From contig CM065890.1 in assembly GCA_033439255.1 (NCBI GenBank), positions 620,001 to 684,000 on the forward strand: 64,000 nt of DNA. The letters are read 5' to 3'. Below the pieces are notes generated by a model that saw only the letters and a program-made list of their open reading frames with translations, was not told where the DNA came from and searched no databases. A program made the position numbers and the translations under genes. The DNA comes from Hericium rajendrae. Its lineage: Eukaryota > Basidiomycota > Agaricomycetes > Russulales > Hericiaceae. Positions within the stretch are counted from its first letter, which is position 1; each line of letters begins with the position of its first letter. Below, one piece after another: positions 15,601 to 42,551 of this stretch.

Positions 15601-16577
15601 ATGTGGTCATCGACCGTTTTACAAAGCACGTCTCCTTCACTCCGTGTAATGAGACCATTACCAGTGATGGCACAGTCGACATCCTTTTTGACAGGATTTA
15701 TCGGAACTATGGCCTCTGGGAACACCTCATCTCTGATCGTGGCCCACAGTATGCAGGCAAAGTCATGCGTGGTGTCTTTGACAAACTTGGTATCAAGTCC
15801 TCCCTCAGCACCGCCTATCATCCACAGACCGATGACGAGTCAGAACGTGTCAATCAAGAACTCGAGCAGTTCCTTCGTACCTTCTGCAACTACCGTCAGG
15901 ATGATTGGGTCCAATGGCTCCCTTACGCTGAGTTCTCGCACAACCACCGTATCCACAGCGCCACTAACCGAGCTCCATTTGAAATGCTCCTCGGCTATAT
16001 TCCCACTGCCATCCCCACTGTCAACCCCACATTGTCTACACCCGCCGTCGAGGATCGTTTCCGCCACCTCGAACAACTTCGCACTGAGGTCCAGGCCAGC
16101 CTTCAAACAGCTGCTGATCTCATGAAGCGCAACAACCAGGACCATATGCACAACACCATCCACTTCCAGGTTGGTGACAAGGTCTGGCTCGATGGCAAGA
16201 ACATCAAAACCACGCGACCCAAAGCTAAGCTTGCTGATCGACGCCTGGGACCTTTCAAAATCACTGACGTCCTGGGCCCAGTCTCTTATTGACTGAAGCT
16301 ACTGCCCACCTGGCGTATCCACCCGGTGTTCCACACGTCCCTGTTGTCCCCTTACAAGGAAACTGATGCTCATGGTCCCAACTTCCCTGCACCACCACCT
16401 GACCTTGTGGAGGGCGAGGAAGAGTACGAAGTTGAGTCTGTCCTCGATGCTCGTCTCACCCGGAACAAACGCGGCATTGAATATCTCGTCAAATGGGCAG
16501 GCTACCCTGATTCGGAAAATCAGTGGCTTTCACGTACCTCCCTTTCCAATCATCAGGGAAATTGGAATTCTACATAG
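12687..16577 (+). pseudogene. pol: Chromovirus pol: protease, RT, RNase H, integrase, chromodomain (fossil)
   Basis: The protease motif [16 protein letters not shown] lies near the start. RT motifs follow ([12 protein letters not shown], the [10 protein letters not shown] box), then RNase H (VEVDASDYATGG, WTDHKNLEYF), an integrase zinc module (HHDTPMAGHPG, CATCQATK), the integrase core (DFIVKLP, SDRGPQYAG, YHPQTDDESERVN) and the chromodomain. This order defines the chromovirus branch of Ty3/Gypsy, whose chromodomain usually steers integration to chromatin marks. The frame is broken about twice, so it is unlikely to be active. Confidence 0.9.
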
Positions 16578-17868
16578 CCCAGTGTTGGGTTATGTGCCCT
16601 ATCAGAGTGCTATGAGGTCTATGTAGCTACCCTTCTTAGCTATATAGGGCTATGAGACCTATCATATCTTCCATAGCAGTAGGTGGAAGCTATATAGTGC
16701 TATATACTTCTGAGGGGCAGATATGATTGCTATATAAACTTGTCAGCTTGCTATGGTCCCTATAGCTCCTATGGCCCCTACATTTAGTGAGCTAGACTCC
16801 ATAACCATCCAGTCAAAATTTTCATATTGCACACTCGAAAGCATGGCAAAAATTATATATTTATTAACTCCTACTAAATGACATTGTAGCTACAACACAG
16901 AAGTAAATACAGTAGTGAATGCTATATGTGCACGAGGCGCACAGACTCTTGCACGACACGGCACAGCCATGCGCAAGGCGAGGCAGCTGTGCACACGCGC
17001 GAAATGCGAGGGCCGTGAGCGACGCAGCAAAGCCCCGCATGCGTCGCGAGGGCCATGTCAGGACAGCGGGATCACGCGGAGTCAGTGGGGGTACGTGCGA
17101 GGCGCAGGAGCCGTGTACGAAGCATGGCGGCCATGCGCGACACGGTGGCGACACACGCGAAATGAGAGGGCCACGCGCGATGCTGCAAAGCTCCGCGCGC
17201 GTCGTGAGGGCAGTGGGGCCAGACGCGAGTCGGCGAGGGTACATGCGAGGTGCGGGAGCCATGCACGAAGCAAGGCAGCATCACGCGCGAAACATAAGGG
17301 CCGTCGCGACGCAACAAAGCCTCCCGCGCGTCGCGGGGGACGTGCACGAAGCACGGAGGGCGTGCGAGCAGCGCGAGGGCGTGCGCAGTCAGCCGGGCCA
17401 CGCACGAGTCGCGCGTGACGTGCGCGCGACAGCGGGACCACGCATGCGACGGTGGGGTCGCGCGCGCGACGGTAGGGCATGTACGCGGCGATGGGGTCAC
17501 AAGCGTGGCCATGGGTGTGTACATGGGTGCCTTTGGGCACTCGGGGGCGTGCGTGGGCACGGGCGTGCCTGTCGGGGGTCATCCGAGGCCGTACGCGCGC
17601 AGCCGGAGGCAGGCGCGGGCATGCACACGCGCAGGCGCGGGCGGAGTGCCGGAACCCGTGGGCAGGCAGGTGGAGGCGGAGAGGTGGGCAGGCAAGCGGA
17701 GGCGGAGGCGTGAGCAGGCAGGCGGAGGCGCAGTCGCGGGCTTGCCTGTGCTGTCAACGCTGTGCGCTGAAGCACTGTTGGCGGCGCGGGGTTATGCGTG
17801 CACTGTGAGGCCGTGCGCGGGCGTGCACGGACTGCTGGGGCCGTCACGCGTGTCACGTTGCACTTGCT

Positions 17869-17898
17869 CGAGCCTCGTTGCCACGGCAACGAGGCTCG
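17869..17898. repeat. Hairpin 1 of element A
   Basis: Perfect 14-bp stem with a 2-base centre: CGAGCCTCGTTGCC / GGCAACGAGGCTCG. The core GCCTCGTTGCC is also in B1 (37232-37264) and B2 (41060-41093). Confidence 0.9.
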
Positions 17899-18009
17899 AC
17901 GAGGTGGGCAGCGTTGAGTCGGTGGCATCGTCGGGGAGATGTGGTAGCGGGCGCGGCAGGGTCGTAGTCGAGGGGAATGGGGCGGTGTGGGATACGAAGA
18001 TACAAACGC

Positions 18010-18043
18010 GCGAGTATCGCTCGTGTAAACGAGCGATACTCGC
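18010..18043. repeat. Hairpin 2 of element A
   Basis: Perfect 15-bp stem GCGAGTATCGCTCGT with loop GTAA. The same stem core CGAGTATCGCTCG occurs in B1 (37082-37112) and B2 (41214-41244), with a different loop. Confidence 0.9.
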
Positions 18044-18482
18044 TTTGTTAGTACGAAAAGATAAAGAATATTGTAATTACTTACCTAACACAACCCTCCC
18101 CGCATCTACTAGCCCATCGGAGTGTCGAACGACGCCTTGCGTCGTGTATTGACTCTTGAGCGAGGTTGAGTGAAGGAAGGCGAGAGTGGAGAGAGGAAAG
18201 TGAGGAAGTCGTGCCGAAGTTCAGCCACAGAGCACTTGACGTGAGCCCAGCTTTCTTCGACATCAGAAAGTCGAATAAAATCGTGATAAATCCAGAAAAA
18301 AGGGAGCTTCTACATATTATTCGTAAGACCAGAATCAATGAGCTAACTAGATATCTAACGGACAGTACGCTCGCGACCCGGGAAGTCAACTTAACCAAGT
18401 CTAATTCCTAGCCTTTCTCGCGGCTCTCGGCAGCGCCCGGCAGCCACATTTGCGGCTCCGACCGGGCACGTCCGGGCTCAGC

Positions 18483-18490
18483 CTTATAAG
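18483..18490 (+). promoter_or_regulatory. TATA box of element A
   Basis: CTTATAAG lies in a short GC-rich context, followed by a CT-rich start-like region (TCTTTCCTCTCAACC) and the first of several intron-like segments. B1 and B2 have TATATAAG at the matching place. Confidence 0.55.
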
Positions 18491-19476
18491 GCACGCGTGA
18501 CGCGTCGTCTCTTTCCTCTCAACCACAACAATCTCTTCTGCCACGTCGTCATCTCTGCTCGTCGTTGTCTGCTCGTCGTTGTCTGCTTGTCGTCGTTTGC
18601 TCATCGTCATCTGCTCGTTGTTATCTCTGCTCGTCATTTTTAAGGTACAGTTGCTATTATTTTCTTTCTTATTCTTATACTAATACTAAGTATTATCTTA
18701 ATAGATTTTCGCTTTTCTAATGCTTTGGTAAGTTCACCTTTAGTCTTCGGTTGTTGTGTCACTCACTAGTATGTGTATACTTATTAGATTTTCGCTTTTT
18801 TGTTACTTAAGGTAAGTTTGTTTGTGATCTTTTGTATTGACTTTAGCTAATGCTTATCTTTTTGTAGTGTTTGTATTTAAAATTCCATAGCTTTATGTAA
18901 TGTTTATTAGTTCTATTATGTTGTAGTTAAATAGAGTAAATAAATAAAATTATGTTTTGATCAATAATATGATTGACTTTAAGCTATTGATGTGATCTTT
19001 TATTAAATATATAGAATTTTGTTTGTTATCTAATTGTAGATTGAATAGTGTAAATAGAGTCTATTGCTTGTATAGATGTGTCAAGTCTATCTTGTGAATA
19101 TAGCTTACATCAATGATATAGCTTTTATAGCTTCTATAGCTATGTATCCTATCATAGCTGTATAGTCAGCTATGATAGCTATGATAGCACTTTATAGTAT
19201 CTCTCTTGATCTCTATAGCACTATATAGCATCCCTTCTTGGCTATATAGGCTATGGAGTAAAGGGCAATGCTATGGCTCTAGGAACTCTATATAACTCTG
19301 ATAGAGCTATGTAGCACCTCTACATTTTCCTGATGATGCCCATGGTGCAATCACTGACTTCTACACCCGCCATCCGCATGCACTCAAGGCTCCCAATCTT
19401 CGTGGACTCATCTACCTCGACCCCGTCCACGCTCATCATGCACTCCAGGCGAAAGTGCGTCTTAGAGAGGGGGTGA

Positions 19477-19899: not shown

Positions 19900-20055
19900 C
19901 CTGCCTGCTCATCTGCACACCTGCCTGCTCACCTCTGTACCTTTCCACTTGTTCACATGCTCATCTGCTCACCTGCTTGTTTGCATGCTCATCCACTTAC
20001 CTGCTTGCCTACATGCCCACCTGCTCACTCACATGCCCACCTGCTCACTCGCGTG
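19900..20055. repeat. Degenerate CTGCTCAC-type tandem repeat
   Basis: Many imperfect copies of CCTGCTCAC / CATGCCCAC follow the chromovirus LTR directly. It is low-complexity DNA with no coding signal. Confidence 0.7.
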
Positions 20056-20424: not shown

Positions 20425-21777
20425 TCATGGTAGCCCACTGTAGCTCTTCCTGTTTTTCCAGATGTATTGCAGATGCTTACCGGATATGCTATGGTTGTTC
20501 ACGAGCAAACGCTCATCGCTCGGCTGTTTCTCTGTATATGTCTTCGCGGCATCGAGATCAGCCTTTTTCACATATATAATTGCCTTTCCCTGCATTCCCG
20601 CTCGGCACGCAGGGCGCCCCACCCGCTGAATCGTTGAAGACGCACTCGAAGGCAATGGGTAAATGATGATCTCGTTGATGTCCGGCGCATCAATCCCAAC
20701 ATCCATAACGGCAGTACTGACGAACAACACGGTTGTGCGATTTTCTGCAGTAGCATAGAGTGCTAACAGACTTTCCTTCTTGCATTCAGGACAATTCATG
20801 GAATGAAGATGTCGAACTAGAGTGAGTGATTTGGCTCGAAGCCGAGCAGGGAGAAGTAACCGGAGGTACGTCGCGACTCGGTGTCCTAACTCTATCATCT
20901 CGCAGTAGACGACTCGCTTGGGTGTTTCAGATGCCTGCTCCATATTGACTGGGATTAGCCAATCTAGGTCACGAAATTCATACCCAGAGTATGGGTACTT
21001 GGCATTGCGGAAGATCAAGTCGACGTTGGGGCGCTCGCAGTCACGCCGGTCCATGTGGTAGGTCCCTTCTGTGAATCCTAGGTGTCGCAAAATACGACGG
21101 GTTTGAGCACCAGGTTCGACGCTCGCGGATAGTGCCACCACCATCAAATGCTCCGGACCTCGCAGTCGTATTGACCAAATATCTTCGTAGAGCGGCCGAA
21201 AGTCTGCTCCCCACTCGTCGGTCAAGTGGGCTTCGTCGACGGCTAGCACTCGCCACGAAGCACGGAAATACGGGGTGCTGATCATTGTCGAGAACTCCGG
21301 CAACCTGAGCGACTCCGGCGATAGGGCAATGATGCGATACTTGCAGGCGTGAGCTTCCTTCCACAGGTCGCGTCCCTCATCTGTTGCCTTGAGTAAGGTA
21401 TCGCTGTTAATGACCACAGATAATAGCCCTTTAGCGCGCAGGTTCTCTGCCTATCGAAGGTGAGTACAACGAGTATATGCTTTCGATACACTTACCATCG
21501 CTTCCTCTAGGAAATTTGTTGGTTCGACAACGACTGTGATCGTGTTTGGCCTAGCCAATGCTGGTATGTATATTAAAGCTGATTTGCCATCACCTGTTGC
21601 TGAAATACAAAAGACATCTTGCCCATTCAGGATGCATGCCGAGTCATATAGCTGGAAGTCCCGTGGTGTAAACGGGAGAGAGGGGGTAACGAGTGACTCC
21701 AATGTTGCTAGGCCGCCGGGAGAGGTCCAGTCTTCCGGGATGGTGGGTGTTAAATTATAGTAAGGAGAGGATATCAT
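20425..21777 (-). CDS. RecQ-like DEAH-box helicase, C-terminally truncated
   Basis: Two exons, 21496-21777 and 20425-21444, with a 51-base intron (acceptor chosen so the frame continues NLRAKG). Motif I is ATGDGKSA, a variant of the RecQ TGxGKS Walker A. Motif II is DEAH (VDEAHLTDEW), followed by LSAS (motif III), and the second helicase lobe ends with the motif VI-like QRVGRPACRAG. The arginine finger motif is therefore slightly changed from the usual Q-x2-GR-x-GR. There is no zinc-binding RQC or HRDC region; the frame ends shortly after the second lobe, where motif-rich spacer DNA begins. It lies between transposons, so it is either a broken host copy or a dispersed or telomere-linked type RecQ gene. 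Helicase activity is uncertain. Confidence 0.7.
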
Positions 21778-22077
21778 CTTGCATAGTCTAAGGATGAGGC
21801 ATCTTAAAAAGAGTGTGAGGGGAGTTTGTACATCCTTTACTGGATGTTTTTCAGGGTATCGAGGCTAGTAACGGCGCGTCGCATCAAAATACAATATATT
21901 TTCTATCTACACATGATGTGCCGACGACTGAGGTGAGCTTTATTTGTTTCCCTTCTCGTTACACTAGAAGCTCATGTACCTTTCTCGATAGTCTAATCGG
22001 GATATCTAGGTACATAATACAGTCATTCTTATCCCTTCCTACGACTGAGTCTAATCAGGATATCTAGTTTCTCTCGA
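21778..22077. other. Spacer between helicase gene and Copia fragment
   Basis: No ORF of note. The 18-base motif GTCTAATC-GGATATCTAG appears twice (about 21991 and 22049). It may contain the helicase promoter (minus strand). Confidence 0.4.
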
Positions 22078-24816
22078 AAAGGTGTTTGCAGACTTAATGG
22101 GGCCAGTGGAGCCGGTGACTCAGGGGGGCAAAGCGTATTCTCTCAAACTCATAGACGACTACAGTTCCATGTCATTTGTGTATCTTCTCCGTCAGAAATC
22201 CGAGGCCGTTGATGCCTTCCGTCTCTGGCGTGCGAGTGCCGAACGCTCCTCTGGTCAACCTCTGGGTGTATTTCGTACGGACAACGGTGGCGAATTCACT
22301 GCAACTGAATTTGAAGCCTACCTTGCTGCCGAGGGGGTCATCCATCAAACTTCCGCCCCGTACTCCTCTGCTCACATGGGTCGTGTCGAACGTCTTCATC
22401 GCACTCTGATGGGCCGTGCGCATGCGATGCGCTCATCCGCCAGCTTGCCGGAGAGCCTCTGGGGGGAGGCCCTTCTCATGGCTTGCTATCTGCACAACCG
22501 CACACCCACGCGCACCCTTCACAATCGCACTCCCTTCGAAGCCTGGTACGGAACCAAGCCTGACCTGTCTTCTCTTCGTGAGTTTGGCTGTCGCGCCTTT
22601 GTCCTTATCCAGAATAAACACAATCCCAAGGCCTTCGACCGCTCTGTTGAGTGTGTCCTTGTTGGCTACTCTTCGACTTCCAAGGCCTATCGCTGCTATC
22701 ACCGTGCGTCCCGGCGCCTCATCATCTCATGCAACGTCTTTTTCCTCGAGTCTCAAGATGACATGCCGCATTCTCTTTATCCTGGCCGTATCATTCCCGC
22801 GCTTCCTCGTTCGCCTCCGTTGCCTTCTTCTGTTTCTAATGTTCCCGTCGATGATTCTGATCTTGTCTCTCTTCCTTCTTCTAAGACCGTCCCTTTTGTT
22901 TCTAAGACCGTCCCTTTTGTTTCTGCATCTTCCCCTTCTACGACCGTCCCTTTTGATCCCAGTTCTTCTCTTTCTACGACCGTCCCTTTTCCTTCTTCTT
23001 CCGATTCTTCTACGACCGTCCCTCTTCTTTCAATACCATCTTCGCCATCTCAACCCTCAATCTCTTCAAATTCAATACCTTAAGATTCCATCCCTCAAGA
23101 TTCAATACCTCAAGATTCACTACCTCAAGATTCAATACCTCAAGATTCAATACCTCAAGCTTCAATATCCCCTGCTTCTCCCGCCGCTCTCACTCCACGC
23201 CGTTCTTCTCGCTCTCGCGTTCCCACCCCTAAGCACGCGATCCTCTCCGGCCAAGCCATTCCCGTCTCCCGGGTCGAACGCGCTGTCACTGAGTCCCGCG
23301 ATGCTGCCCTTCGTCTTCGTGCTGCTCGTTCTGTGCCTCCTCTAACCGTTCCTCCTCCAGCTCTCGTCGCTCCCTCTGACCCTGACTTTGAGATCATCTT
23401 GGCTACTATGGACGCCTCTGCCGACGAACCGCGTACCTGGCACGAAGCTCAATCCTCTCCCTTCGCCGACGAATGGCGCAAAGCCTATCTCGATGAGCTC
23501 GCATCCCTCCGGCAGCATAAGGTATGGGAACTTGTCCCGCGCTCGTCAATCCCTTCCGGTCGGCGCCCAGTCAAATGTCGCCCCGTCTTCAAAATAAAGC
23601 ATGACGCGGAAGGCAATGCCGTGCGTTTCAAAGCTCGTCTGGTGGCTAAGGGCTTCACCCAAGTCCCCAGTGTCGACTACCATGAGACCTACTCACCCAT
23701 CGCCCGCCTCGAGTCTCAACGCCTCGCTCTTCACATCGGCGCTACCCACGACTGGGAAATGGAGCAGCTCGACGTCAAGACTGCCTTCCTTCATGGTGTC
23801 CTCGAGGAAGAGGTCTACATGGAACAGCCTCCCAGTTTCGCCGAGCCCGGTTTCGAAGACTACGTATGTCACCTACTCAAAGGTCTGTATGGCCTCAAGC
23901 AGGGCGGGCATGCTTGGAACCAGCTCCTTGACTCTGTCATGCGGGAGCTTGGCTACAACCGCCTCGAATGCGAGTGGTGCATTTATTACCGCGCTCGTGC
24001 CGCCGGCCGCACCATCATTGTCATTCACGTCGATGACATGAATGTCGCTGCCGACAGCAAGGAGGAGATGGCGCGTGTCAAGGCCGAACTCTGCTCACAC
24101 TTCGACATTGTCAAACTCAGCGCTGTTAACTGGCTCGTCGGTTTGGCTGTTTCTCACGATCGCACTGCCCGTACTGTCACTATCTCACAGACTGCTCTGA
24201 TTGATTCCATCATCACGCAGTTTGGTCTCACTGACGTGCATCCAGTCTCCACTCCGCTCGACCCAAACGTACACCTCGTGTATGCCGACTGCCCAACCGA
24301 CGACGAGTCTCGTGCCGAAATGGCGACGGTACCCTATTGCGAGCTCATTGGCTCCCTCATGTACCTTTCCATCGGCACCCGTCCCGACATCGCACACGCC
24401 GTCCAGCACCTAAGCCAATTCAACTCGAACCCCGGCCGTGCCCACTGGCTTGGAGCCAAACATGTCGCCCGATACCTCAAGGGCACGCGAACACTCGGAC
24501 TTGTCCTCGGCGGTTTACAACCTCTCGCGCTGTCAGGTTTCACAGACGCCAGCTTTGGCGGCCAGGCTGGGCCTCAAGGTGCGCGTCGCTCCATCTCGGG
24601 CTACGTCTTCACTCTAGGCAGTGGTGCCATCACCTGGAGTTCCAAGCGCCAGCCGGTCACAGCGCTCTCCACTTGTGAGTCCAAATATGCCACTGCAGCT
24701 CATGCCGCACGAGAAGCTCTGTGGCTCCGTAACGTCCTCACTCTCCTCGAATTTGCCCCCTCCGGCTCCACTCCCATCGCCGGCGATAACCAAAGCACGC
24801 TTCGCCTCACCCGAGA
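22078..24816 (+). mobile_element. Ty1/Copia fragment, both ends missing
   Basis: It begins inside the integrase core (FADLMGPV, FRTDNGGEF, YSSAHMGRVERLHR) and runs through the linker and RT (HVDDMNVAADSK) into RNase H, stopping part-way in RNase H exactly where the LTR sequence of the next Copia element starts. No LTRs of its own are present. The linker holds two minisatellites. It resembles the Copia element at 24817-43094 at protein level but is a different family member. It has about one internal break plus the two missing ends. Confidence 0.88.
23070..23165 (+). repeat. 15-bp minisatellite in Copia linker
   Basis: About six copies of a 15-base unit close to ATTCAATACCTCAAG. A second, less regular array (ACGACCGTCCCTTTT, about 22886-23030) lies just before it. 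Both fall in the integrase-RT linker, which tolerates length changes. Confidence 0.85.
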
Positions 24817-25173
24817 TGAGACTCAGTTGTGAAGGGGGATAAAACGACTTTATTATGCACCTGAACGATCCCGATGAGACTATCGGGTAAGGTACGTAAG
24901 TAACGTGATACAGGCGCAAGGCAGAGGAAAAACAGCAACTCACCTCAGTCGTGAAGGGGGATAAAACGACTAAGGGAGGTAGATGAGAGCGGTAGAGTAT
25001 ATATACGAACAAGATGGGACTGGCGGGACAATGCATGACGAGGAACATGATATCATAGGCAGACAGAGCAGACAGATGAGAACCGAAAGCAGATAAGAGA
25101 GAACCAAAACGGGACAAGAGAGACTCGCATCTCCCGGCGCAAACAACACATACTTTCACGTGTTATTCCAACA
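24817..25173 (-). repeat. 3' LTR of the Copia element
   Basis: The minus strand begins TGTTGGAATAACACG at 25173, preceded by a purine tract (GAGGAGGAG). It matches 42738-43094. The outermost 13 or so bases present in the right LTR are not recognisable here. Confidence 0.85.
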
Positions 25174-25279
25174 CTCCTCCTCGCAGGGGGATGCGAAGAC
25201 TCCTCCTGAAGGAGAAGCTCCTCCCCAACTCCTCCTCAACTCCTCCTGAACCCAAGGCCGCTACGCGGCAATCTCCTCC

Positions 25280-27393
25280 TCATCGTGCGGCTATAGGTGC
25301 AAGACCAAGGGCGGAGCGAAATTTGACGTGCGGCGCGCGTGAAAGGGATTTCGTGAGGATGTCGGCCGTCATGTCGTGAGTCGGAATGTAGTGGACGGAG
25401 ATGTGGCCGAGGGCGACACGATCGCGGAGAAAGTGATGGTCAAGATCAAAATATTTGGAGCGGCAGTGACTGGATTGCTCGTGAGTAAGACGAATGGCAC
25501 TTTGATTATCGCACGCGATGGGGACGGGGCCGGGAGGGGCAAAGTCCAAGAGCGTGAGTACGTTGCGAAGCCAGAGTGCCTCGCGTGCTGCGTGGGCGGC
25601 TGCGGCATACTCGGATTTGCACGTAGAGAGGGCAGTCACGGGTTGACGTTTGGAGCTCCAGGAGATGGCGCCGCTGCCTAAGGTGAAGACGAAGCCGCTA
25701 ATCGAGCGTCGGGCGCCGGTGGGACCGGGTTGACCGCCGAAGCTGGCATCGGAGAAGCCGGAGAGGGCGAGCAGTTGTGTGCCACCGAGGACAAGACCGA
25801 GGGTGTGTGTGCCTTTGAGGTACCGAGCGACATGTTTCGCGCCTTGCCAGTGGTTGCGGCCAGGATTGGAATTGAACTGGCTGAGGTGTTGGACAGCGTG
25901 GGCGATGTCGGGTCGGGTGCCGATGGTGAGGTACATGAGGGAGCCAATAAGCTCACGGTAAGGGACGGAGACCATGTCGGCACGAGACGTATCGTCGGTA
26001 GGGCAGTCGGCGTGGGTGAGACGAATGTTGGGGTCGAGAGGCATAGAGACGGGGTGTGCATCGTCGAGACTGAATTGAGTGACAACCGAATCGATGAGAG
26101 CCGTCTGGGAGATAGTGACAGTGCGGGCGGCGCGATCGCGAGAGACGGCAAGGCCGACAAGCCAGCTGACTGGGCCGAGCTCGACAATGTCGAAGTGAGA
26201 GCAGAGCTCGCGCTTGACGCGGGCCATCTCGTCCTTGCTGTCAGCGACGACATTCATGTCGTCCACATGAACGACGATGATAGAGCGGCCCGTGGAGTGA
26301 GTGCGATAGTAAATGCACCACTCACAAGCGAGGCGCGTGTAGCCGAGTTCGCGCATGACGGAATCGAACAGGAGATTCCAGGCGCGCCCGCCCTGTTTGA
26401 GGCCATATATGCCCTTGAGAAGACGACAGACGAAGTCTTCCATGCCAGGTTCCTCAAAACCCGGGGGCTGCTCCATGTACACCTCCTCCTCGAGGATGCC
26501 ATGGAGGAAGGCCGTTTTGATGTCAAGCTGTTCCATCTCCCAGTCTTCAGTCGCCCCGATATGCAATGCGAGGCGTTGTGACTCGAGGCGAGTGACGGGA
26601 GAGTAAGTCTCGTGGAAGTCCACACCCGGGACCTGGGTGAAACCTTTCGCAACGAGACGAGCTTTGAAACGTACAGGGTTATTGGCGGCATCGCGTTTGA
26701 GTTTAAACACGGGTCGACATTTGATGACACGACAGCCGGCTGGGATGGACGATTGGGGAACAAGCTCCCAAACCTTGTGTTGACGGAGGGACGCAATCTC
26801 GTCGACATAGGCTTGGCGCCATTTGGCAGCGAATGGGGAGGCTTGAGCTTCCGACCAGGTGCGCGGTTCGTCGGCAGAGGCATCAATAGTGGCCATGATG
26901 GTCTCGAAGTCGGAGCCGGCGGGAGAGGGCAGGGAGACATGCTCGAAGTCGCCGGTCGAGGGAGTAGACGGACCCGTAGACAGAGTAGGTGGCGCAAGGC
27001 GATCGGAGGCCGGCTGGGAGGAGGGACCAGCACTCGGGACTGTAACACGAAGGTTAGAGACCGAGCGATGGTCAGCGAGGCGGCGCATGCCAGCAGCAGG
27101 CGACTCAGCGACGGCGCGATCAACGCGAGAAATAGGCACTGGAAGGCCAGAAATAAAAGCCTGCTTCGGGGTAGGAATGCGCGAACGCGAAGGCCGAAGA
27201 GGTGGAGACAAAGAAGGCGGAAGCGCAATGGTAGGTAAAGGCAACAAAGGAGCAGAAGGAGCAGGTTCCGAGGAAACAGAGGGAACCGGCGGAAAAGAGG
27301 CAAAGGGAACAGGTTCCAAGGAAACAGAAGGAACGGGTTCCGCTGAGACGGGCATCACAGGAACAGGATCCGGAAGAGGATCGAGGTGCGAAA
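25280..27393 (-). CDS. pol: Copia RT-RNase H region
   Basis: Open frame with a long Pro/Ser/Val-rich linker, the Copia RT start (WRQAYVDEIASLRQHKVWEL), the RT catalytic box HVDDMNVVADSK, and RNase H ending THDMTADILTKSLSR, the usual Copia C-terminus. It runs from the edge of the DNA transposon to near the LTR. In family terms it copies the RNA genome. Confidence 0.9.
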
Positions 27394-30300
27394 GGACCCC
27401 CGACAAGCAACCCAAAGGTTCGATCCGGGTGCGTTAACCAAACGGCGCGTAGCGCCGGAGCTCTGTGGAAATGGCGGTAACAAAGGGCCCAAATTTGGCC
27501 CAATCTCTATGTTTTGATGCGTATACCGGCCAGCATCGGCCGAAGGTCCATTCCACCGCGCGGTAACAGGCAGTAACCATGAGCACCCCACGGCGGCGGC
27601 CGCACCAATTTTTTTTTACATGTACTCTACTTATTTGGGTTGTTTAAGTCGGAAACATAGATTTTAGTCAGACACCAGTACTCCGTAAGATTGCATGAAG
27701 GCTATCGTGCCATCTGATCCCAACGTTTTGGGCCATCATTCCCTCGCCGAGTGATACTTCTTCGACTTCTCTTCGACAAGAATGGATCCTATTCAAGTAG
27801 ACGACACAGACGATGAAGACGAATTTGTGAGAGATGACTGGATCGGACAAGGACGCACCATCCCTTCCAAACCCAATATACCTGTCGGTCTGGACAGATA
27901 CCTGAGGATCATATCAGCAATCCCTGTAGAGATACAGGCCCAGCATATCCCCACTGGCAATCTCAATGTTCGAGAATTCCTTACTGTACATGTCCCGAAG
28001 CAAGACGCACACTTGGTTTCAGTCCGAGCGGACCTCATCTTCTCCAAAGACTGCCCGAATCTGTCAGTATCATGTCTTCAGGAGCGGAGCATACCCAGTC
28101 GCACCTTCATCCAGGACACCGTCGCAGCAATTCCCCAGGCAATTCTAGATGAAGCTGCTTCAATTATAGATCCACGCTACAAGGGCGGACGCATACCTAT
28201 GTGGGTGATATCCCTTTGGGATGCAGCACAGGTGGTCCTCGACAAGCAGAAACTCTGGCAAGGGGCATTGGATTGGCTTGCTCATGTAGAGCCAACAGGT
28301 CCGCTCGCACTGCAAGCGGCACTCGAAGACGCGCAGCACGTCTTAGGCTGTCTTGCTTGGGATGCGCCGACAACGGTGTTGGAATCCTTGACGAGGACCT
28401 CTGAGTTCGCGCGGCTCCTGGGTTCAAAGATGATCAGCACAACATTAGTCGGCATGATGACGAGCTGGGTAGTAGAAGAGGTGGAGAGGCAAAACGTACT
28501 TCGGGCATGGTTCAAGATATGCGGGCTCGAGTTTTCATCGAAGCTACTCGAGTACTATCAGAGCCATTCCATGGATTCAGATTCCCCCCGTTTCATACAA
28601 CGGCTCGAGGCAGTATTGCGCAAGAAGGAAATATGCTTACTGTTTCCCATCTATCTCAAGGAAGCCCATCACTTTGTAGTCTTTCAAGTCGATTCTGGAG
28701 AGCGCACATTGTCGTATGGTCAGTCTTATGGTTCATGACTACAATGGACGTCAACTGACTGACTAGCATTTATAGGTGATAGCTTATACCACCAAGGCTT
28801 TCGGCTTCCGCGCAACGTACGACGCGTATTCGACAAGTGGTTAGCAGCTAAGGTTGGCGTGTACCAATGACTTGGGTGTACTCTGCCCTCCGGTGATCAA
28901 CTCGATGGTATCTCTTGTGGAATATGCAGCGCGAACATGATTGCGCATGCTGCCTTGGGTGAGGAGCTATGGGAGGTCGAAAATCAAAAACTCGAACGTC
29001 TACGCTGGTTCGTGCGTATCGCCAAGTGCCAGTTGGAAGACAGAGATGTACGCACCGTGATCATGTATGTGATAGCCTTGACTGACTTGACCATAGGACG
29101 CGCTGCTGGCATCTGGTGAGCCCTCGGACCCTGAGCCAATGCCAGAAGATCCGGCGCCGTCTGCACCGAGCTTGCCAGAGGATCCCGCGCTGCCTGCGCT
29201 GAGCTCGCCAGAGGATCCTGCGCTGCTGGCGCCGAGCTTGCCAGAGGATCCCACGCTGCTGGCGCCGAGCTCGCCAGAGGATCCCATATCGCCTGCGCCG
29301 ACCTTGCTAGAGGATCCCGCACTGCTTGCGCCGAGCTCGCCAGCAGTGGATTCTGTGCCACCTGCTCCAAGCTTGTCAGAGGGTACTGCGCTGCCTGTGC
29401 CGAGCTTGCCACGTGGAATGGAGCAGCTGCTCAACTCACCCCACGTACCTGCATTTGATACCAGTGAGTATCGATACCCCACACCAGACGACCGAACGAG
29501 CATACCTCAAACGTTGCGCACCCGATCGCCAAGTCCAAAGAATGACGATCTCATTCGTCCAGACAGCGCCGCTTGTTTTGATGACTGGTTGTCTCCCGAG
29601 CCACACCACGCTTCTCCTCTTGAGCGGCTCGTATCATTGGACGGACCTCAGATACCCGAAAATCACGATGAGCTGGCCTTCGGCAATGGCAATTGGGAAA
29701 TGGACTTACCTTGTCCATCAGACACCGACATGTCTGAGTCTATGGGTCAGCTCTCGGAAGGTTGCATTGATGAAGAGCTGGATGAGAGAGTCATCAGCAA
29801 AGTACCAACTATACGCCTCAAACCGGCACCTTCTCGTGACAAAGCCAGTCTTTGGCCAATCTTCAGGACAGCTGAGTCTAGCAAAGCACCTGATAAGCAG
29901 GATACCGCTCAAGAAGAGTCGAGAAAACAGTCTTACAGCGCAGCATCGATGTCGTCGCCGAACAGTAGTGATGAAGACAGAAAGCCGCGCCTTTCGAAGG
30001 CTTCACACACGGCCGTACACAAGCGCCCACAATTGGCGCCTGGCATCAAGACGACCGATGAAGGGAAGCCAAGCCACATTGGCAACTCTCGTTCAGCTGT
30101 CCGTACACGCTACGAGAAAGAAGCTATTTCTGCTGGTACTTTTGTGCTTGATATGGGACGCTACGAGGAATTCAAGCAGGCAATCCTCGACAATTACGAC
30201 TCGCATGCCTCGTTTGATGAAGACCGTCCATTATATGTCCGTCACTCAAACTGTGGGCAGTGGATGAAGATGCGGCAAAATTATAACACAGTCGCATTTT

Positions 30301-33300
30301 CTATTCACATCCACGGTACCAAAACGAGAAAGCCCTGTCAATCGGCACCAAGGAAGACTCGTGCAGGTGGAGGTGCGCCGACATTGCAAGAGGTGTGGGC
30401 CACGGCCACTGCATCGAATAAGACTGTTCCTAAGGAAATCGAGAGGCCATGTCCAGGACTGCGTGCAACTGACTGGCCCAAAGTTGATCACTACTTGCAG
30501 CGCTCTTTCACTGCAGGTGGTGGAGGAACAGCCTTGCCACGCCTCGCTGTTGAAATTTACCCACACGCCGAGAACTATAAATCTTTACCAGCTCGCGAGA
30601 AAGAGGTCGTTCGCAATGTTCAAGAGACCCGGTTCAAGTGGATCAATAAGCGGTTGCCAGACCGTGTGGTCTCGTCGATGTGCACGAGCACAATCCTGGT
30701 GGCTGCAGGTATGGACGAAAACAGTGTTGGGCCATGTACCCCCTGTCGTGATCTGCTGAAAGATAAGACTTTTCGAGTCGCACTCAAGGTTGAAGCTCCA
30801 AAAGCAGAAAATACGAAGTTTATGCCAAAGATGTATCGCGCAGGCGATGACAAGGCTATCGATCGATTCGGACGGGTTTCGGGCTTGAAGGATATTATTG
30901 AGGCAAATCGAAAGGTACATCTTTAGTTGAGTTATTTCGGGTCTACTCAATCACGATTGCTGCAGAGTTCTCAAGAGCCATGTGTTGTTTTCGCACAATG
31001 GGTTCTTGCGGGACATTTTAATGCTGAACATGTCTTCGTCAGTCTGGTGAGAGCTATGGTAAACAAAAAGGAACGGGAGCTGCACGGAATAGGGATGGAA
31101 GGTTTCCGATACCCACCCGACGTGGTGGAGCTGTCACATATTATTTCGATTCATAGCATGAGGGCGTATCAATCAATCCGCAACATTCTCCCCGTTCCGA
31201 CTGAGCGCACTCTTGTGTAAGTCATCATGTTGCTACATTTATTTCCATCATTGCAGACTCTCATACGACATCTATTCGAGCAGACGGCACCGCACTAAAG
31301 AGATTCGATTTCCTATCGGCATTCAGGATCGCACCTTCGACCTCACTGTAGAGTACGTGACACTCATAAGCTACTCGGGGCCACTCGGACTCGCATGCGA
31401 TGATACGAAGCTGCTGCAATCATTGCGACCGTACTATGATCCAGTGCAAAAAGGCCATTTTATTCTAGGTGGGACAGGCAAACCCATGAGGGTCCTCAAT
31501 CCCGAAGCTTTGAATAGAGCATTAGATGCATGTGAGATCATCATGGCGGACAAGGTGAATGTTTCGCTACGTTACTAGTACAATGTTATCTGATAGAGAT
31601 GTCTCCTACTAGCTTCGACTCTTTTGTCTCCAGATACCACTTCCAAAAGTCACAACACTGGTTCTCGCGGCCATACCCATAACCGGAAACCTCTCCGCTG
31701 ACGAACTCGAAGGCTATTCAATACAGATCTTATTTGGTCTCCTTGACCGTGGCCTTGCAGTGGTAGGATACGCTGCTGATGGTGCGGCAACCGAGCGAAA
31801 AGTCCAACGTCAGATTTCCGCGAAGGCTACGGAGTTTAAAGATTATCACATATCTCACCCTGGACATGATCGTCGTGATATCAATCTGCACATCCCCTTG
31901 TTTGGCTCTCAGCGACAACCGGTTGCTATGATTCAGGATGCGAACCATGGACGCAAGACTTACTGCAACAATGGATTCTCGATGACGTGCACAATGACCC
32001 TTGGCAATTACCCGGTCTTGTACCCTCACTTCCGAGCTATCGCTTTTGAAGGCGGGCCGATCTACCCAAGAGATGTCGAGAAACTCGACCGACAAGATGA
32101 CAATGCCACCATTCGTCTGTTCTCCGGTCATACACTACAGTGGCTGACCGAAAACCATGACGAATGGCTCGGATCGATTGTTTACTTGTTTGTATTCGGC
32201 GAACTTATCGATGCATACCAAAGCTGCTCAATGTCGATCAGCGACCGTGTCTATCTTGCTCTGCGTGCCTTGTTTTTCATGGAGATGTGGGAAGACTTCC
32301 TCACCAAGATGGAGTATCCAAAATCGCAGCACTTCCTTTCTCATGAAGCAGTCGATATCACGCAGTTCCTTATATTTGGTCTATTGCAACTGGTCATCAT
32401 TTACCGGGACCATTTTGGCAGCAAATACCCCTTACTGCCGTGGCTACTCGGTACTGAGACCTGTGAACATGTCTTTGGTTTGTGTCGGCAGATTGTGAAG
32501 GACTTTACCATGCTTGACTTTCAGTACATGGTTCCTAAATTGCATGTCCGGCTTCGAGAGCACTTTTTCTTCAGCCATAGCTCAGACGGTAAGGCACGTG
32601 CCAGCGGATATAATCACACCTACACCGACTCGCACGGAATCAATTTTCAAGCTCTGTCTACATACCCTTCCGACAACGATATAGAGGACATGGCATCCGC
32701 AGCATATGAAGAGGCCACAGGCCTATGGGAGCTTCTTGGCGTCAAAGCATCACCTGGCAACACGGCAGCATCACGTCGGTTCCCTCCTATTAGTACTTGG
32801 TTCCAGAGCGACCATGGTACTGTAGACTCACCTGCACAAGCCCATCCTGTACCCAAGGCTGACATGGACTACGACTCCTGCGGGGACGAGGATGATACCG
32901 GTGGATGGGAAGAGGAAGAATCACTCCGTTCGCAAACCACTGCCATGATGCGGGCTCTAGAGAAAGAAATACCATCAGATTCAAAGGAAGAGGAACAGTG
33001 GAATGGTCTGGCCTACGCTGCCGCTGCGCTTACCATGCAAGACACAATGACGATGTGAGTTTGGGTTGCAAACTATCACCGCCATCAATCGCAGTTGCTG
33101 ACCTTCCGCAGACTTGAATTACCAGATGACGACGGCGACCGTGATGCGGAGAGAGCAAGTGTGGGAGATGCACTGGCAAACTGCCTGTCCAGCGTGCACG
33201 ATCCGAATGAGCGAGCGAGTCTGAGCGATGCACAAATAATGTCGCTGAGTCTTGACGGTTTGGTGGAACTTCGGCTGCGGCATCAGACTAAGTATGCAGA

Positions 33301-34597
33301 TACGGGAGTTCGTCGAAAAGCAGAACTCACCATAGATACTCGTAAAAGCACCGTAACAGCAGGGCCCGTCGAGGACAGTGTACTCGAAGAGTCGAGCCAG
33401 ATGGTGGCAAGCAACGGAGATTCGCACCCCCAAGGCGTGGAGGTGCTTGCTGTCAATGGGGCACCCAAAGAAGTCCCTTCTGACGCCGTACTTTTCCGTC
33501 ATTACAGCAACATCCTCAAAGACCGAGCAGAGAAAGGCATCGGCATGGGCGCGGTTCGCGTTCTCCGATGGAGAAAGCCGGCACCAGGTGGTTATGGCAG
33601 CGCAAAGTCGACCCCAATACCTGCTGGCACGGCAGCTAACGCAGCGGCCGTGGTGAAGAATATTGCAAGCAAGGTACGAAGAGTCCATTCAGCACATCAT
33701 TTATCGTGATCTGATGTTTGAACTTACACTATTTACTATTCAGGTTCAGACAAAGCGGTCCGGGATCGTTAAGAAGCATAAACTTCCCTCCTTTGTGTCG
33801 CGCGCGAATATCCACGTCGATCGACCTTTGTCTGCTGCAAGCAATGATATCGGCAGCTCTGGTTATGGATTTATCTTTTACAGAGAAAAGATTTGGCTGG
33901 CGGAAGGTGTGTGTATGCCTGTATCTCTAATTTCATATGACTGAAGAGTACGGCTCTGCGTGCAGTTCTCGCGATATCGTCCAAAACAGCTGGCAAGGGC
34001 GTCTTAAATGCATGGGTGTCAGATTCGTCGTCAATCACGGCGGTCTCTTACATGTCGGTACAAGCCTTTCGACCTGCCTTCGGCCACCAGTTCTCAGCCG
34101 TCGGCTCCATCCAAGGCATGCCAAACTTACGTTTTGCACGGATCAAGCCCAATGAATTCCTATTCATGCTCAACTCACCTCCAAGAGCAATGGGGAAAAG
34201 CTTGAGTATTGCTGCTGAAGATAAGGAAGCTCTTTCTGCATTACACAAGAGCACAATGAAGGTAATTGCGACCGCCGTCAAGGACCTCAATAGCCGGGCG
34301 TCGAAGCGTTTGGAGCAGATACAAGACAGTGATACCGAATAGTCCTAGACTTACTGTTATGTCTGTGATAACGAAATTTGGCGAGAATATGCCCATAGAT
34401 AGGCAGGAGAGCAATACAATTTCCTAGCATTTAAATCGAATTTTTTGAGAGGTCTATTACTGGGTGCGGTAACGGATCGCCCAAACGCTATGTCTATTCC
34501 GCGGCACGTATACCGAGCGCTGGGGCCGACCCCGGCGATCTGTCGGTAACGAGCCTCAAAAAGCGGAATGAACCTTTGGGCGGCTTGTCGGGGGTCC
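27394..34597 (+). mobile_element. 7.2 kb DNA transposon with Ulp1 and DDE-type domains
   Basis: About 35-bp imperfect TIRs (GGACCCCCGACAAGC...), with about five mismatches between ends. Flanks GGTGCGAAA (27385-27393) and GGCGCGAAA (34599-34607) are a 9-bp target duplication with one C/T change; 8 bp is equally possible. The interior is one nine-exon gene (27782-34342). It lies inside the Copia element, in the linker between integrase and RT. Flank size and the transposase motifs point to the P or a related superfamily, but I cannot exclude KDZ-type elements. Confidence 0.85.
27782..34342 (+). CDS. Transposon protein: Ulp1-like protease fused to DD(E) transposase, one in-frame stop
   Basis: Nine exons: 27782-28718, 28776-29047, 29097-30914, 30966-31216, 31257-31554, 31634-33054, 33112-33673, 33744-33906, 33966-34342. 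They total 6099 bases, an exact multiple of three. A Ulp1/C48-like cysteine protease lies at about residues 250-400, with catalytic-type His (AHHFVVFQVD) and Gln...Cys (QLDGISCG). An 11-residue PEDPALLAPSL repeat follows (29139-29400), then a possible zinc site (CTPC), then a large transposase-like core with GYAADGAATERK, QDANHGRKTYCNN and LGTETCEHVFGLCR as candidate D, D and E sites, recalling P/THAP9 transposases. A TGA at 28868-28870 (codon 344) interrupts exon 2 just before the Ulp1 Cys motif, so this copy is probably dead unless read through. Confidence 0.75.
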
Positions 34598-34607
34598 TGG
34601 CGCGAAA

Positions 34608-35770: not shown

Positions 35771-38440
35771 CATCTGAGAAAAGGACCAGTGGTATATGGC
35801 ACTATATAGTCTACATAGCTCTGATAGGGCCATAGGAGTCCTCTTTTCTACATAGCTACTCCATAGTAGTGAAGTAATCTATATAGAGCTATCATAGCTA
35901 TCATAGCTATCATAGCATAGACTATAAGCTATCATAGCTCTCATAGCTGCTATAACATATGATGGCTATCATAGCTATGTCAGCTATGTGGTATATCTCT
36001 GTTATCATATCATGTCTAGCTAGTAAGGCTGCTATCTACTCTATATCACCTATGTCTTGTATGCTGCTTAAGAGTGCTAAAAATATATTTAAATATACAT
36101 ATATAATATATTTGAATCTTGTTGCATCTATAACATTTAAAACATCAAAAATTTAAAAGCATTATATTTCAAACAATATTAAATTACAACACATTTAGCA
36201 CAAAGCTACAACTACACATCTATGATACACTGTAAAGATCAACACTTCAAGATAAGATAACAAAACATACAAAGATAAGATGAGATAAGATACAAAGATA
36301 AGATAAGATAGAACTTAAAGATAAAACATAGACAAAAAAGATAAGATAAGACTTACTCTACAGATAAGAAAAAGCGAAAATAATCTAAAGGCAAAGTCAA
36401 CAAATTAGTATACAAAGATACAGATATAGAAAAACATAAGACTTACTTAAGATAATAAAGCAAAGATATAAAAGTCTACAAAGAACAGTAGGGTTAGTAA
36501 ACAATAGAATAATATAGCAACAATATAACAACTTACCGAACATTAGAAAGTTGAAGCAGAAGAAGAGAGAGCGACGAAAGACGAGGGATGGTAGTGGTAG
36601 GGAAGAGAGAGAGACAGCGCGTCGTGCATGTCTTATATAGACGTGGCAATCGGAGCGTCAAATGTAGCTTGCCGAGACCGGGCCGGGCATAGCCGGGCAT
36701 CGTGCCAGAGGCTGGCCGTTAGATTCTATTAAGTGGATTTTGATACCTGCGAGCGCGCGTGTCGTAAAGTAATTACATAGATGGCTCATTCATTGTATTT
36801 ATACCGGTGTGCTATATCTTCTCACTTTTTTCGTGAATTAAACGGATTTTATTCGATTTGTTAGAGTCGAAACCGCTGAACGCGCGAGTTGAATGCTGCT
36901 GTGGCTGTAAGTCGTCGCACGACTTGTATCTATGCAACACTCCCTCCATCTCCCCCTTCGTCTGCCTCTCTCTCTCCATACGCACGGCGTCTTCAAGACT
37001 CGGGAGGACTTAGTAGACGGCTTGAGGGGCTAATAGGTATGTTTAAAAACTCTCTTTCATTTGTTTCTTGTACTAACACAGCGAGTATCGCTCGTTCACC
37101 GAGCGATACTCGTGCTTTCGTTCTTGCAACCGTGCGCACCACGCCCCCATCGCCTTCGACAACCCCGCGGTCCACGTCCACGAGCTCGCAGCAGCCCCAT
37201 CCCCGACAACAATGCCGTCCACGTCCGCGTTGTCGTGCCTCGTGCCGTGGCAACGGGGCACGACACGTCGCTCGGACTCCCGCGCTCACCCTCAACGACA
37301 CCCGCACGTCCTCAACAGGTTCGTGCGGGTCATACAACCACCTCGCCGTCGACAATGCGCTCGCGGCCGCGACATCCGGCTGTGCGCACACGGCTACGCA
37401 AGGTCGCAAGCCCGCGCGAGGTCTGAGCTGCGCGTGCACGCCGCGGACGGCCTCTCCAGCCGTTTCCCATGCGGGCGCACACTCTCGCATGCCCGGACGG
37501 CGCGAACACGTCCGCCCCAGCGTCCGCACGCAAACGCGCGACCAGGCGGGTCTACACGAGTGCGCGCACGGCCAGCACGACCGGCGCACCCCGCCTGCTC
37601 CGGCATCGCCTGTGCGCCGATGCCCTGCCCCGCACACGACCCCCGCACCCCGCGCGCGAGCAAGGCCACGCAAGACCGTGCCAACTCACGCGCGGCCATG
37701 CACGATCCGTGACACCCCGCCCCGCCCCGTCCCGCGCATAACCCGTGCGCCGACACCATGCCCCGCACATGGCCGCCTTGCCCCATGCACGCGCGTACAG
37801 CCAGGGACGGCCACGCCAGCTCGCGCGCGGCCACGCCGATCTGCGCCCCCCCGCCTCGTCCCATGCATGGCCCTGCGCCGATGCCTCACCCCGCACATGG
37901 CCGCCTCACCCCGTGCGCGCGCGCACGGCCAAGCACGGCCATGCCAGCTCGCGCGCGGCCCGCGCACCCCGTTTCGTCGCCCTCCGCCCGACAGCATGCA
38001 TCCGCCGGGCGAGAGCGCACCTGTCCGTTCACACACAGATGGTGATGCGCAAGAGGTGCGAGGGCGCGAGGTCTATTTAGGACCTTCGTTTGCTAGTGTA
38101 ATAGTGTTAGATTTTGTATTTTCCTTGTTTGTAGTAGTCTACCCCTTGAATATAAGAAAATTTTGACTTAAATGTCTTGACTACCTATGTGGCTCATCAT
38201 AAGGAGTATAGTAGCCATAGTAGTCATAGTTTCCCTTGGTAAGTATCATAGTCCTATGTATATGACACCCCTAGCTATAAAGGCTATGACACCCTATGTA
38301 TTTGACACTTCATGCTATGGAGGCTATCATAGGCCCCATAGCTCCACATAGCTAAATAGTCCAAGTTCATAGCCCTCATAGCTCACTGATAGGGCCCATA
38401 ATAGGACTTGCTGCTATATACAAAACAGATTTCTCAGATG
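35771..38440 (-). mobile_element. Element B1: CATC-TIR element, 2670 bp
   Basis: The ends are CATCTGAGAAA and its complement, with a 2-bp TG duplication outside. The layout matches element A in reverse: CTATAG-rich end, AT-rich intron-like tract, TATA (36632-36640, minus), hairpin 2 (37082-37112), hairpin 1 (37232-37264), GC-rich block (37270-38050) with about three 120-bp repeats, then the other CTATAG-rich end. Nearly identical to B2 but inverted. Long GC-rich ORFs exist in several frames; their composition and frame breaks between copies argue against a real protein. It sits in the Copia protease-integrase region. Confidence 0.85.
37670..37990. repeat. GC-rich tandem repeats in B1
   Basis: About three imperfect units of roughly 120 bases containing CCAGCTCGCGCGCGGCC and CCCCGCACATGGCCGCC. 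The equivalent block in B2 is at about 40330-40660. Confidence 0.7.
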
Positions 38441-39883: not shown

Positions 39884-42551
39884 CATCTGAGAAATCTGTT
39901 TTGTATATAGCAGCAAGTCCTATTATGGGCCCTATCAGTGAGCTATGAGGGCTATGAACTTGGACTATTTAGCTATGTGGAGCTATGGGGCCTATGATAG
40001 CCTCCATAGCATGAAGTGTCAAATACATAGGGTGTCATAGCCTTTATAGCTAGGGGTGTCATATACATAGGACTATGATACTTACCAAGGGAAACTATGA
40101 CTACTATGGCTACTATACTCCTTATGATGAGCCACATAGGTAGTCAAGACATTTAAGTCAAAATTTTCTTATATTCAAGGGGTAGACTACTACAAACAAG
40201 GAAAATACAAAATCTAACACTATTACACTAGCAAACGAAGGTCCTAAATAGACCTCGCGCCCTCGCACCTCTTGCGCATCACCATCTGTGTGTGAACGGA
40301 CAGGTGCGCTCTCGCCCGGCAGATGCATGCTGTCGGGCGGAGGGCGACGAAACGGGGTGCGCGGGCCGCGCGCGAGCTGGCATGGCCGTGCTTGGCCGTG
40401 CGCGCGCGCACGGGGCGAGGCGGCCATGTGCGGGGTGAGGCATCGGCGCAGGGCCATGCATGGGACGAGGCGGGGGGGCGCAGATCGGCGTGGCCGCGCG
40501 CGAGCTGGCGCGGCCGTCCCTGGCTGTACGCGCGTGCATGGGGCGAGGCGGCCATGTGCGGGGCATGGTGTCGGCGCACGGGTTATGCGCGGGACGGGGC
40601 GGGGCGGGGTGTCACGGATCGTGCATGGCCGCGCGTGAGTTGGCACGGTCTTGCGTGGCCTTGCTCGCGCGCGGGGTGCGGGGGTCGTGTGCGGGGCAGG
40701 GCATCGGCGCACAGGCGATGCCGGAGCAGGCGGGGTGCGCCGGTCGTGCTGGCCGTGCGCGCACTCGTGTAGACCCGCCTGGTCGCGCGTTTGCGTGCGG
40801 ACGCTGGGGCGGACGTGTTCGCGCCGTCCGGGCATGCGAGAGTGTGCGCCCGCATGGGAAACGGCTGGAGAGGCCGTCCGTGGCATGCACGCGCAGCTCA
40901 GACCTCGCGCGGGCTTGCGACCTTGCGTAGCCGTGTGCGCACAGCCGGATGTCGCGGCCGCGAGCGCATTGTCGACGGCGAGGTGGTTGTATGACCCGCA
41001 CGAACCTGTTGAGGACGTGCGGGTGTCGTTGAGGGTGAGCGCGGGAGTCCGAGCGACGTGTCGTGCCCCGTTGCCACGGCAACGAGGCACGACAATGCGG
41101 ACATGGACGGCATTGTTGTCGGGGGATGGGGCTGCTGCGAGCTCGTGGACGTGGACCGCGGGGTTGTCGAAGGCGATGGGGGCGTGGTGCGCACGGTTGC
41201 AAGAACGAAAGCACGAGTATCGCTCGGTGAACGAGCGATACTCGCTGTGTTAGTACAAGAAACAAATGAAAGAGAGTTTTTAAACATACCTATTAGCCCC
41301 TCAAGCCGTCTACTAAGTCCTCCCGAGTCTTGAAGACGCTGTGCGTATGGAGAGAGAGAGGCAGACGAAGGGGGAGATGGAGGGAGTGTTGCATAGATAC
41401 AAGTCGCGCGACGACTTACAGCCACAGCAGCATTCAACTCGCGCGTTCAGCGGTTTCGACTCTAACAAATCGAATAAAATCCGTTTAATTCACGAAAAAA
41501 GTGAGAAGATATAGCACACCGGTATAAATACAATGAATGAGCCATCTATGTAATTACTTTACGACACGCTCGCAGGTATCAAAATCCACTTAATAGAATC
41601 TAACGGCCAGCCTCTGGCACGATGCCCGGCTATGCCCGGCCCGGTCTCGGCAAGCTACATTTGACGCTCCGATTGCCACGTCTATATAAGACATGCACGA
41701 CGCGCTGTCTCTCTCTCTTCCCTACCACTACCATCCCTCGTCTTTCGTCGCTCTCTCTTCTTCTGCTTCAACTTTCTAATGTTCGGTAAGTTGTTATATT
41801 GTTGCTATATTATTCTATTGTTTACTAACCCTACTGTTCTTTGTAGACTTTTATATCTTTGCTTTATTATCTTAAGTAAGTCTTATGTTTTTCTATATCT
41901 GTATCTTTGTATACTAATTTGTTGACTTTGCCTTTAGATTATTTTCGCTTTTTCTTATCTGTAGAGTAAGTCTTATCTTATCTTTTTTGTCTATGTTTTA
42001 TCTTTAAGTTCTATCTTATCTTATCTTTGTATCTTATCTCATCTTATCTTTGTATGTTTTGTTATCTTATCTTGAAGTGTTGATCTTTACAGTGTATCAT
42101 AGATGTGTAGTTGTAGCTTTGTGCTAAATGTGTTGTAATTTAATATTGTTTGAAATATAATGCTTTTAAATTTTTGATGTTTTAAATGTTATAGATGCAA
42201 CAAGATTCAAATATATTATATATGTATATTTAAATATATTTTTAGCACTCTTAAGCAGCATACAAGACATAGGTGATATAGAGTAGATAGCAGCCTTACT
42301 AGCTAGACATGATATGATAACAGAGATATACCACATAGCTGACATAGCTATGATAGCCATCATATGTTATAGCAGCTATGAGAGCTATGATAGCTTATAG
42401 TCTATGCTATGATAGCTATGATAGCTATGATAGCTCTATATAGATTACTTCACTACTATGGAGTAGCTATGTAGAAAAGAGGACTCCTATGGCCCTATCA
42501 GAGCTATGTAGACTATATAGTGCCATATACCACTGGTCCTTTTCTCAGATG
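39884..42551 (+). mobile_element. Element B2: CATC-TIR element, 2668 bp, inverted copy of B1
   Basis: Same 11-bp ends (CATCTGAGAAA), with a 2-bp AA duplication outside. Contents in order: CTATAG-rich end, GC-rich block, hairpin 1 (41060-41093), hairpin 2 (41214-41244), TATA (41682-41690), a tract with several GTAAGT/TAG pairs (41780-41990), then the AT- and CTATAG-rich end. The different 2-bp flanks of B1 (TG) and B2 (AA) show two separate insertions. It interrupts the Copia gag near its N-terminus. Confidence 0.85.

Follow-up and report, generated by a model that had tools for sequence, protein, structure and literature searches.

What kind of mobile DNA consists of short matching ends around a conserved interior that encodes no transposase? 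This question is raised by a stretch of 64,000 nucleotides from Hericium rajendrae (assembly GCA_033439255.1, contig CM065890.1, positions 620,001 to 684,000 of the forward strand; henceforth the window, in whose numbering all coordinates are given), which holds nested transposable elements. Three of these, here termed A, B1 and B2, had been taken in an initial annotation for a possibly undescribed family of non-coding elements moved by an unknown enzyme. In our view they are probably non-autonomous DNA transposons of the cut-and-paste type, similar to the CACTA-related group PlavakaB, and their interior is probably promoter and control DNA from an autonomous ancestor.

Each of A, B1 and B2 is an insertion of its own, bounded by terminal inverted repeats (TIRs) and flanked by a 2-bp target site duplication (TSD). 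The ends of A (CATCAGGGAAA and CATCAGGAAAA) match at 10 of 11 bases and those of B1 and B2 (CATCTGAGAAA on both sides) at 11 of 11, and the TSDs of the three insertions are AT, TG and AA, respectively, which bears out the shared CATC ends and differing duplications of the initial annotation, together with its sizes (about 2.67 kb for B1 and B2 and 2.79 kb for A; here 2670, 2668 and 2785 bp). As a control for chance, the 340 CATC and 338 GATG sites of the window were paired at distances of 0.2-9 kb: six pairs had at least 10/11 end matches and equal 2-bp flanks, three of which are the elements and three unrelated (10/11), and no other pair in the window reaches the 11/11 of B. The host sequences give a second line of evidence. 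A interrupts a gypsy-type element, with pol open reading frames (ORFs) at 12687-14510 and 14538-16289, near the C-terminal end of pol, in a part that we take to be chromodomain-like. B1, B2 and a third element (27393-34598) interrupt a minus-strand copia-type element, which has gag, integrase and reverse transcriptase (RT) ORFs and long terminal repeats (LTRs) at 24815-25176 and 42736-43097 that are 98.3% identical. When A and one TSD copy were excised in silico the host frame was continuous over the junction (with one stop further upstream in that frame), and the same operation on B1 joined a 798-bp copia flank into one stop-free open frame; retention of both TSD copies at A and B1 shifted the host frame. 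The test is weak at B2 because the insertion lies at the start of gag. The TSDs and the frame test also support the earlier proposal of non-autonomous DNA elements with 2-bp duplications. Assignment to Tc1/mariner or PHISTA was rejected, as the TSDs are AT, TG and AA and not TA.

B1 and B2 are 99.4% identical (2656 of 2666 aligned bases; 6 gap columns), whereas A is a diverged relative: a forced global alignment of A and B2 has 1431 of 2575 positions in agreement, a figure of little meaning by itself, and homology is instead evident from blastn islands at the left end and over two central palindromes (hairpins 1 and 2; best E 4.9e-14). The conserved islands lie in the same order, and the layout common to A and B runs from the ends through a GC-rich block, hairpin 1, hairpin 2 and a TATA signal to an AT-rich tract, just as had been noticed at first sight.

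The regions beside the ends are distinctive in both their repeated words and their CpG content. Compared with 300 shuffles of each 300-bp end of A and B2, counts of GCTATG/CATAGC, words picked from those same ends, exceeded the shuffle maximum at all four ends, with both orientations represented; AGCTAT/ATAGCT is a second repeated word. These replace the CTATAG motif in which the ends had been said to be rich, which occurs 1, 2, 0 and 0 times in the four ends, within the range of the shuffles. The ends are also nearly free of CpG: 1 was observed against 12.8 expected in the left 320 bp of A, 1 against 11.3 in its right 555 bp, 0 against 12.1 in the left 330 bp of B2 and 1 against 15.2 in its right 708 bp, whereas the middle parts of A and B2 are enriched (211 against 165 and 193 against 150, respectively; zone boundaries were set after the data had been seen). 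The interior appears to be a CpG-rich, palindrome-bearing control region that is unusually well conserved.

We compared these traits with known systems. Defective Spm/En and other non-autonomous CACTA elements of plants have a GC-rich control stretch near their promoter, a likeness to A and B. They also resemble A and B in having short TIRs and arrays of short motifs beside the ends, and CACTA elements characteristically have subterminal repeats to which TNPA-type proteins bind (both according to PMC2613891); such arrays are present at both ends of A and B2 in both motif orientations. Plant CACTA elements differ in their CACTA ends and 3-bp TSDs, and the likeness is one of described features. 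The fungal CACTA-related group PlavakaB (Kojima 2025), which includes Agaricomycotina families, is closer: section 3.2.2 of PMC12730594 gives its termini as CATCA..TGATG and its TSDs as 2 or 3 bp. A, with CATCAGG..CCTGATG, has all five of the published terminal bases, and the 2-bp TSDs of A, B1 and B2 fall within the published lengths. B1 and B2 are tied to the group because they are homologous to A. PlavakaA, also fungal and with 2-bp TSDs (section 3.2.2 of PMC12730594), has termini TGT..ACA that none of the three elements has. Unlike PlavakaB elements, A and B hold no transposase or TET/JBP gene and have a conserved non-coding interior instead. Non-autonomous elements have been classed by TIR and TSD in Marasmius oreades (PMC8290104), and on such features of sequence we provisionally file A, B1 and B2 as non-autonomous PlavakaB-like elements. 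The suggestion of an undescribed family with an unknown enzyme is weakened by the PlavakaB termini and TSDs (section 3.2.2 of PMC12730594), although the exact A and B sequences could yet represent a family of that group that has not been catalogued. A catalogued family with the same ends had been named from the outset as what would tell against novelty; PlavakaB, as that section describes it, is one in the case of A, and for B, which has CATCT, it comes close. In the Plavaka literature, surveyed by title and start of abstract with subscription journals and Repbase outside the survey, no non-coding Plavaka element was described.

Under this assignment, a transposase encoded elsewhere would recognise the short ends (CATC..GATG), the GCTATG/CATAGC arrays beside them would probably serve some accessory DNA-binding activity, and insertion through a 2-bp staggered cut would produce the TSD. 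The interior would carry a promoter on at least one strand, with putative transcription and splicing, possibly yielding a spliced non-coding RNA, and may most simply be a part of the autonomous ancestor that was kept after loss of the transposase gene. Several observations weigh against the assignment, among them two hints of coding potential taken up below. B1 and B2, with CATCT..AGATG, agree with PlavakaB at 4 of 5 bases. No Plavaka (pfam18759) match was found in the elements or in selected ORFs of the window (69 Pfam entries, 65 distinct segments). Non-autonomous elements of M. oreades are mostly <1,000 bp according to PMC8290104, and A and B are longer. The ends of A by themselves stand at background frequency in the CATC/GATG control; what supports them is the frame test, together with the subterminal arrays and the homology to B. 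Apart from the TSD length, the link to PlavakaB comes down to 4-5 terminal bases, and the three elements could belong to another, unnamed superfamily with 2-bp TSDs, their CATC start and PlavakaB likeness being chance; we regard this as unlikely, given the complete terminal agreement of A and the accord of both TSD length and subterminal arrays with the CACTA-related group.

Alternatively, the elements could be producers of RNA in their own right. A divergent promoter would give rise to non-coding transcripts that are spliced, with two strong hairpins in the leftward one, and these would act in the regulation or mobility of the family. TATA signals and leftward intron-like signals lie at homologous positions in A and B, the latter adjoining hairpin 2 in both and diverged inside. 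In the rightward direction, the TATA box is followed by stretches of the form GTAAGT..branch-like motif..TAG. The window contains TTTTCGCTTTT at four places, all of them inside the elements (twice in A and once each in B1 and B2) and flanked by TAG|A and GTAAGT; these amount to three independent instances because B1 and B2 are copies of one another. Six hairpin sequences folded better as RNA than all 200 of their shuffles (z -3.2 to -8.0), and one pair of hairpin 1 has both of its bases changed between A and B, while another remains a pair (U-G) only in the leftward RNA. Against this reading, there are only two diverged sequences to compare, and the numbers of complete intron-like stretches lie only slightly above those of shuffled sequence, being reached in 23 (A plus strand), 51 (A minus), 15 (B2 plus) and 14 (B2 minus) of 200 shuffles, and one of the two candidates on the B2 minus strand sits in the subterminal zone. 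No Rfam family reached its gathering threshold in the window. Palindromes 1 and 2 fit protein-binding sites in DNA equally as well as RNA hairpins. The core of hairpin 1 in A and B2 resembles the palindromic RFX X-box, forms of which are listed for Drosophila in PMC2375033, and might bind an RFX-type protein; in B1 it lacks one base. We interpret the TATA and intron-like signals as those of a promoter region that may contain introns, which falls short of proving an RNA, and consider RNA production as the family's defining activity distinctly improbable. Little probability also attaches to a bolder version, in which a Plavaka-type family has a conserved non-protein cargo (a divergent CpG-rich promoter from which spliced hairpin RNAs are made) between CpG-free transposase-binding ends, and the CpG layout ties its mobility to host CpG methylation. 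Some members of the Plavaka group carry 5-methylcytosine oxidases (TET/JBP gene; PMC12730594).

Is the interior protein-coding? All 14 ORFs of at least 150 amino acids lying wholly inside the elements were without a Pfam match at E <0.1 (one match, at E 0.17, was below its cut-off), so the lack of a transposase ORF remarked on earlier holds. The power at period 1/3 in the GC-rich block was 2.1 (A) and 3.5 (B2) compared to values of 21-27 for three retrotransposon genes, whose greater length also raises their power. Mismatches between A and B in the central stretch, the putative intron included, were spread over the three phases (49/117, 41/118 and 43/115), and 8 of 10 internal gaps there were not multiples of 3. 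In 351-bp windows, B2 peaked at 5.9 (maximum of 200 shuffles, 3.9), within the range of coding controls in equal windows (medians 6.1-8.4, minima 3.0-4.6), whereas the best window of A reached 3.3 (shuffle maximum 5.7). The leftward frames of A and B matched in blastp at E 4.3e-6 with SEG and 6.6e-7 without; since a second frame gives 5.9e-6, the match points to conservation of DNA rather than of protein. We take both hints as DNA conservation, although a short exon may exist. Long leftward stop-free frames in B1 (428 codons) and B2 (363 codons) and these two hints might suggest that a genuine protein gene, evolving fast and with an intron at its 5' end, occupies the GC-rich stretch in the leftward direction. 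This is highly improbable, because the longest such frame of A has only 223 codons, two 1-bp indels fall within the frame between B1 and B2, the tandem unit of B2 is 128 bp long, and periodicity, mismatch phase, gap lengths and the Pfam result all disfavour it.

The differences between copies also bear on the history of the elements. Each of the 10 substitutions that separate B1 from B2 is of the CpG to TpG/CpA type; B1 retains the CpG at 6 of these sites and B2 at the other 4. The idea that the elements undergo a CpG mutation process of their own was rejected, since LTR pairs are equally biased (5 of 6 differences in the copia pair, and 12 of 13 in the pair at 1-688 and 11866-12553); the bias is for this reason a feature of the transposons of this genome, and suggests 5-methylcytosine decay in them. 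Among old copia paralogs, 74 of 340 differences are CpG-type. A similar bias has been reported for some basidiomycetes (PMC4352252). Together with the style of the genes and introns, the CpG-type decay suggests a fungal host. Per CpG site, the B pair has 10 CpG-type changes over 194 and the copia insertion 5 over 19; although the numbers are small, the B pair looks younger than the copia insertion, in agreement with the nesting.

The third insertion in the copia element is a 7206-bp TIR element with AGGACCCCCGACAAGC ends and 8-bp flanks (GGTGCGAA and GGCGCGAA) that have one CpG-type difference. It contains a weak match to Pfam Tnp_P_element at 30927-31217 (E 0.0072, below its cut-off) and is possibly P-like. 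It was rejected as an autonomous partner of A and B, from which it differs in its ends and TSD length. Elsewhere in the window, DEAD/Helicase_C fragments lie on the minus strand between the gypsy and copia elements (20425-21861), and four tandem short-chain dehydrogenase genes, spaced by about 1.6-1.8 kb, occupy 52500-58650 of the minus strand. A 203-bp direct repeat (45495-45697 and 51162-51364), 100% identical with no differences, adjoins CFA20-domain pieces at 44909-45547 and 51794-52273 (the latter below the curated cut-off), which are perhaps one gene split by an insertion of ~5.7 kb. Exact-pattern scans of viral contigs for hairpins 1 and 2, the TCGAATAAAATC block and the left end of B, and of genome contigs for hairpin 2, gave no matches, which has no bearing on fungal genomes. 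Neither the copia RT (viral and genome collections) nor the gypsy pol (viral collection), used as bait, yielded a confirmed relative contig.

Table 1. Coordinates of the three elements and of their features in the window; GCTATG/CATAGC counts are per 300 bp, with mean and maximum of the shuffles.
Feature	Position	Strand	Description
Element A	16551-19335	+	2785 bp; CATCAGGGAAA...TTTTCCTGATG; TSD AT; within C-terminal part of gypsy-type pol gene
Element B1	35771-38440	-	2670 bp; CATCTGAGAAA TIRs; TSD TG; within copia-type pol gene; orientation opposite to B2
Element B2	39884-42551	+	2668 bp; CATCTGAGAAA TIRs as B1; TSD AA; near start of copia gag gene
A left subterminal array	16551-16850		5 GCTATG/CATAGC; mean 0.62, maximum 4
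A right subterminal array	19036-19335		7 GCTATG/CATAGC; mean 0.87, maximum 4
B2 left subterminal array	39884-40183		6 GCTATG/CATAGC; mean 0.44, maximum 3
B2 right subterminal array	42252-42551		10 GCTATG/CATAGC; mean 1.09, maximum 6
A GC-rich, CpG-rich block	16930-17990		without 3-base periodicity
B2 GC-rich, CpG-rich block	40250-41215		contains 128-bp tandem repeat, 2.8 copies, 40364-40735
A palindrome, hairpin 1	17868-17899		core GTTGCC-AC-GGCAAC, X-box-like
B2 palindrome, hairpin 1	41061-41092		core as in A; both bases of one pair differ from A
A palindrome, hairpin 2	18010-18043		GCGAGTATCGCTCG..CGAGCGATACTCGC
B2 palindrome, hairpin 2	41214-41244		13-bp stem identical to A
A leftward intron-like stretch	18043-18084	-	42 nt; GTAAGT...TACTAAC..AAAG; putative
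B2 leftward intron-like stretch	41245-41289	-	45 nt; GTATGT...TACTAAC..ACAG; position homologous to A; putative
A TATA-like box (TTATAA)	18484-18489	+	read from sequence
B2 TATA box (TATATAAG)	41683-41690	+	read from sequence
B2 rightward intron-like stretch 1	41786-41846	+	GTAAGT..TACTAAC..GTAG; putative
B2 rightward intron-like stretch 2	41876-41937	+	GTAAGT..CTAAT/TTGAC..TTAG; putative
A micro-exon-like module, copy 1	18705-18727	+	TAG|ATTTTCGCTTTT...|GTAAGT; putative
A micro-exon-like module, copy 2	18788-18811	+	putative
B2 micro-exon-like module	41938-41965	+	TAG|ATTATTTTCGCTTTTT...|GTAAGT; putative

Overall, A, B1 and B2 would extend a little-studied group of fungal transposons by non-autonomous members of 2.7-2.8 kb whose non-coding core is conserved, and their ends, arrays and palindromes are cis-elements to be sought in autonomous Plavaka elements. 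The conserved non-coding core is the part most worth following: if it is transcribed, the family would, to our knowledge, be unusual among DNA transposons in keeping an RNA and not a protein.

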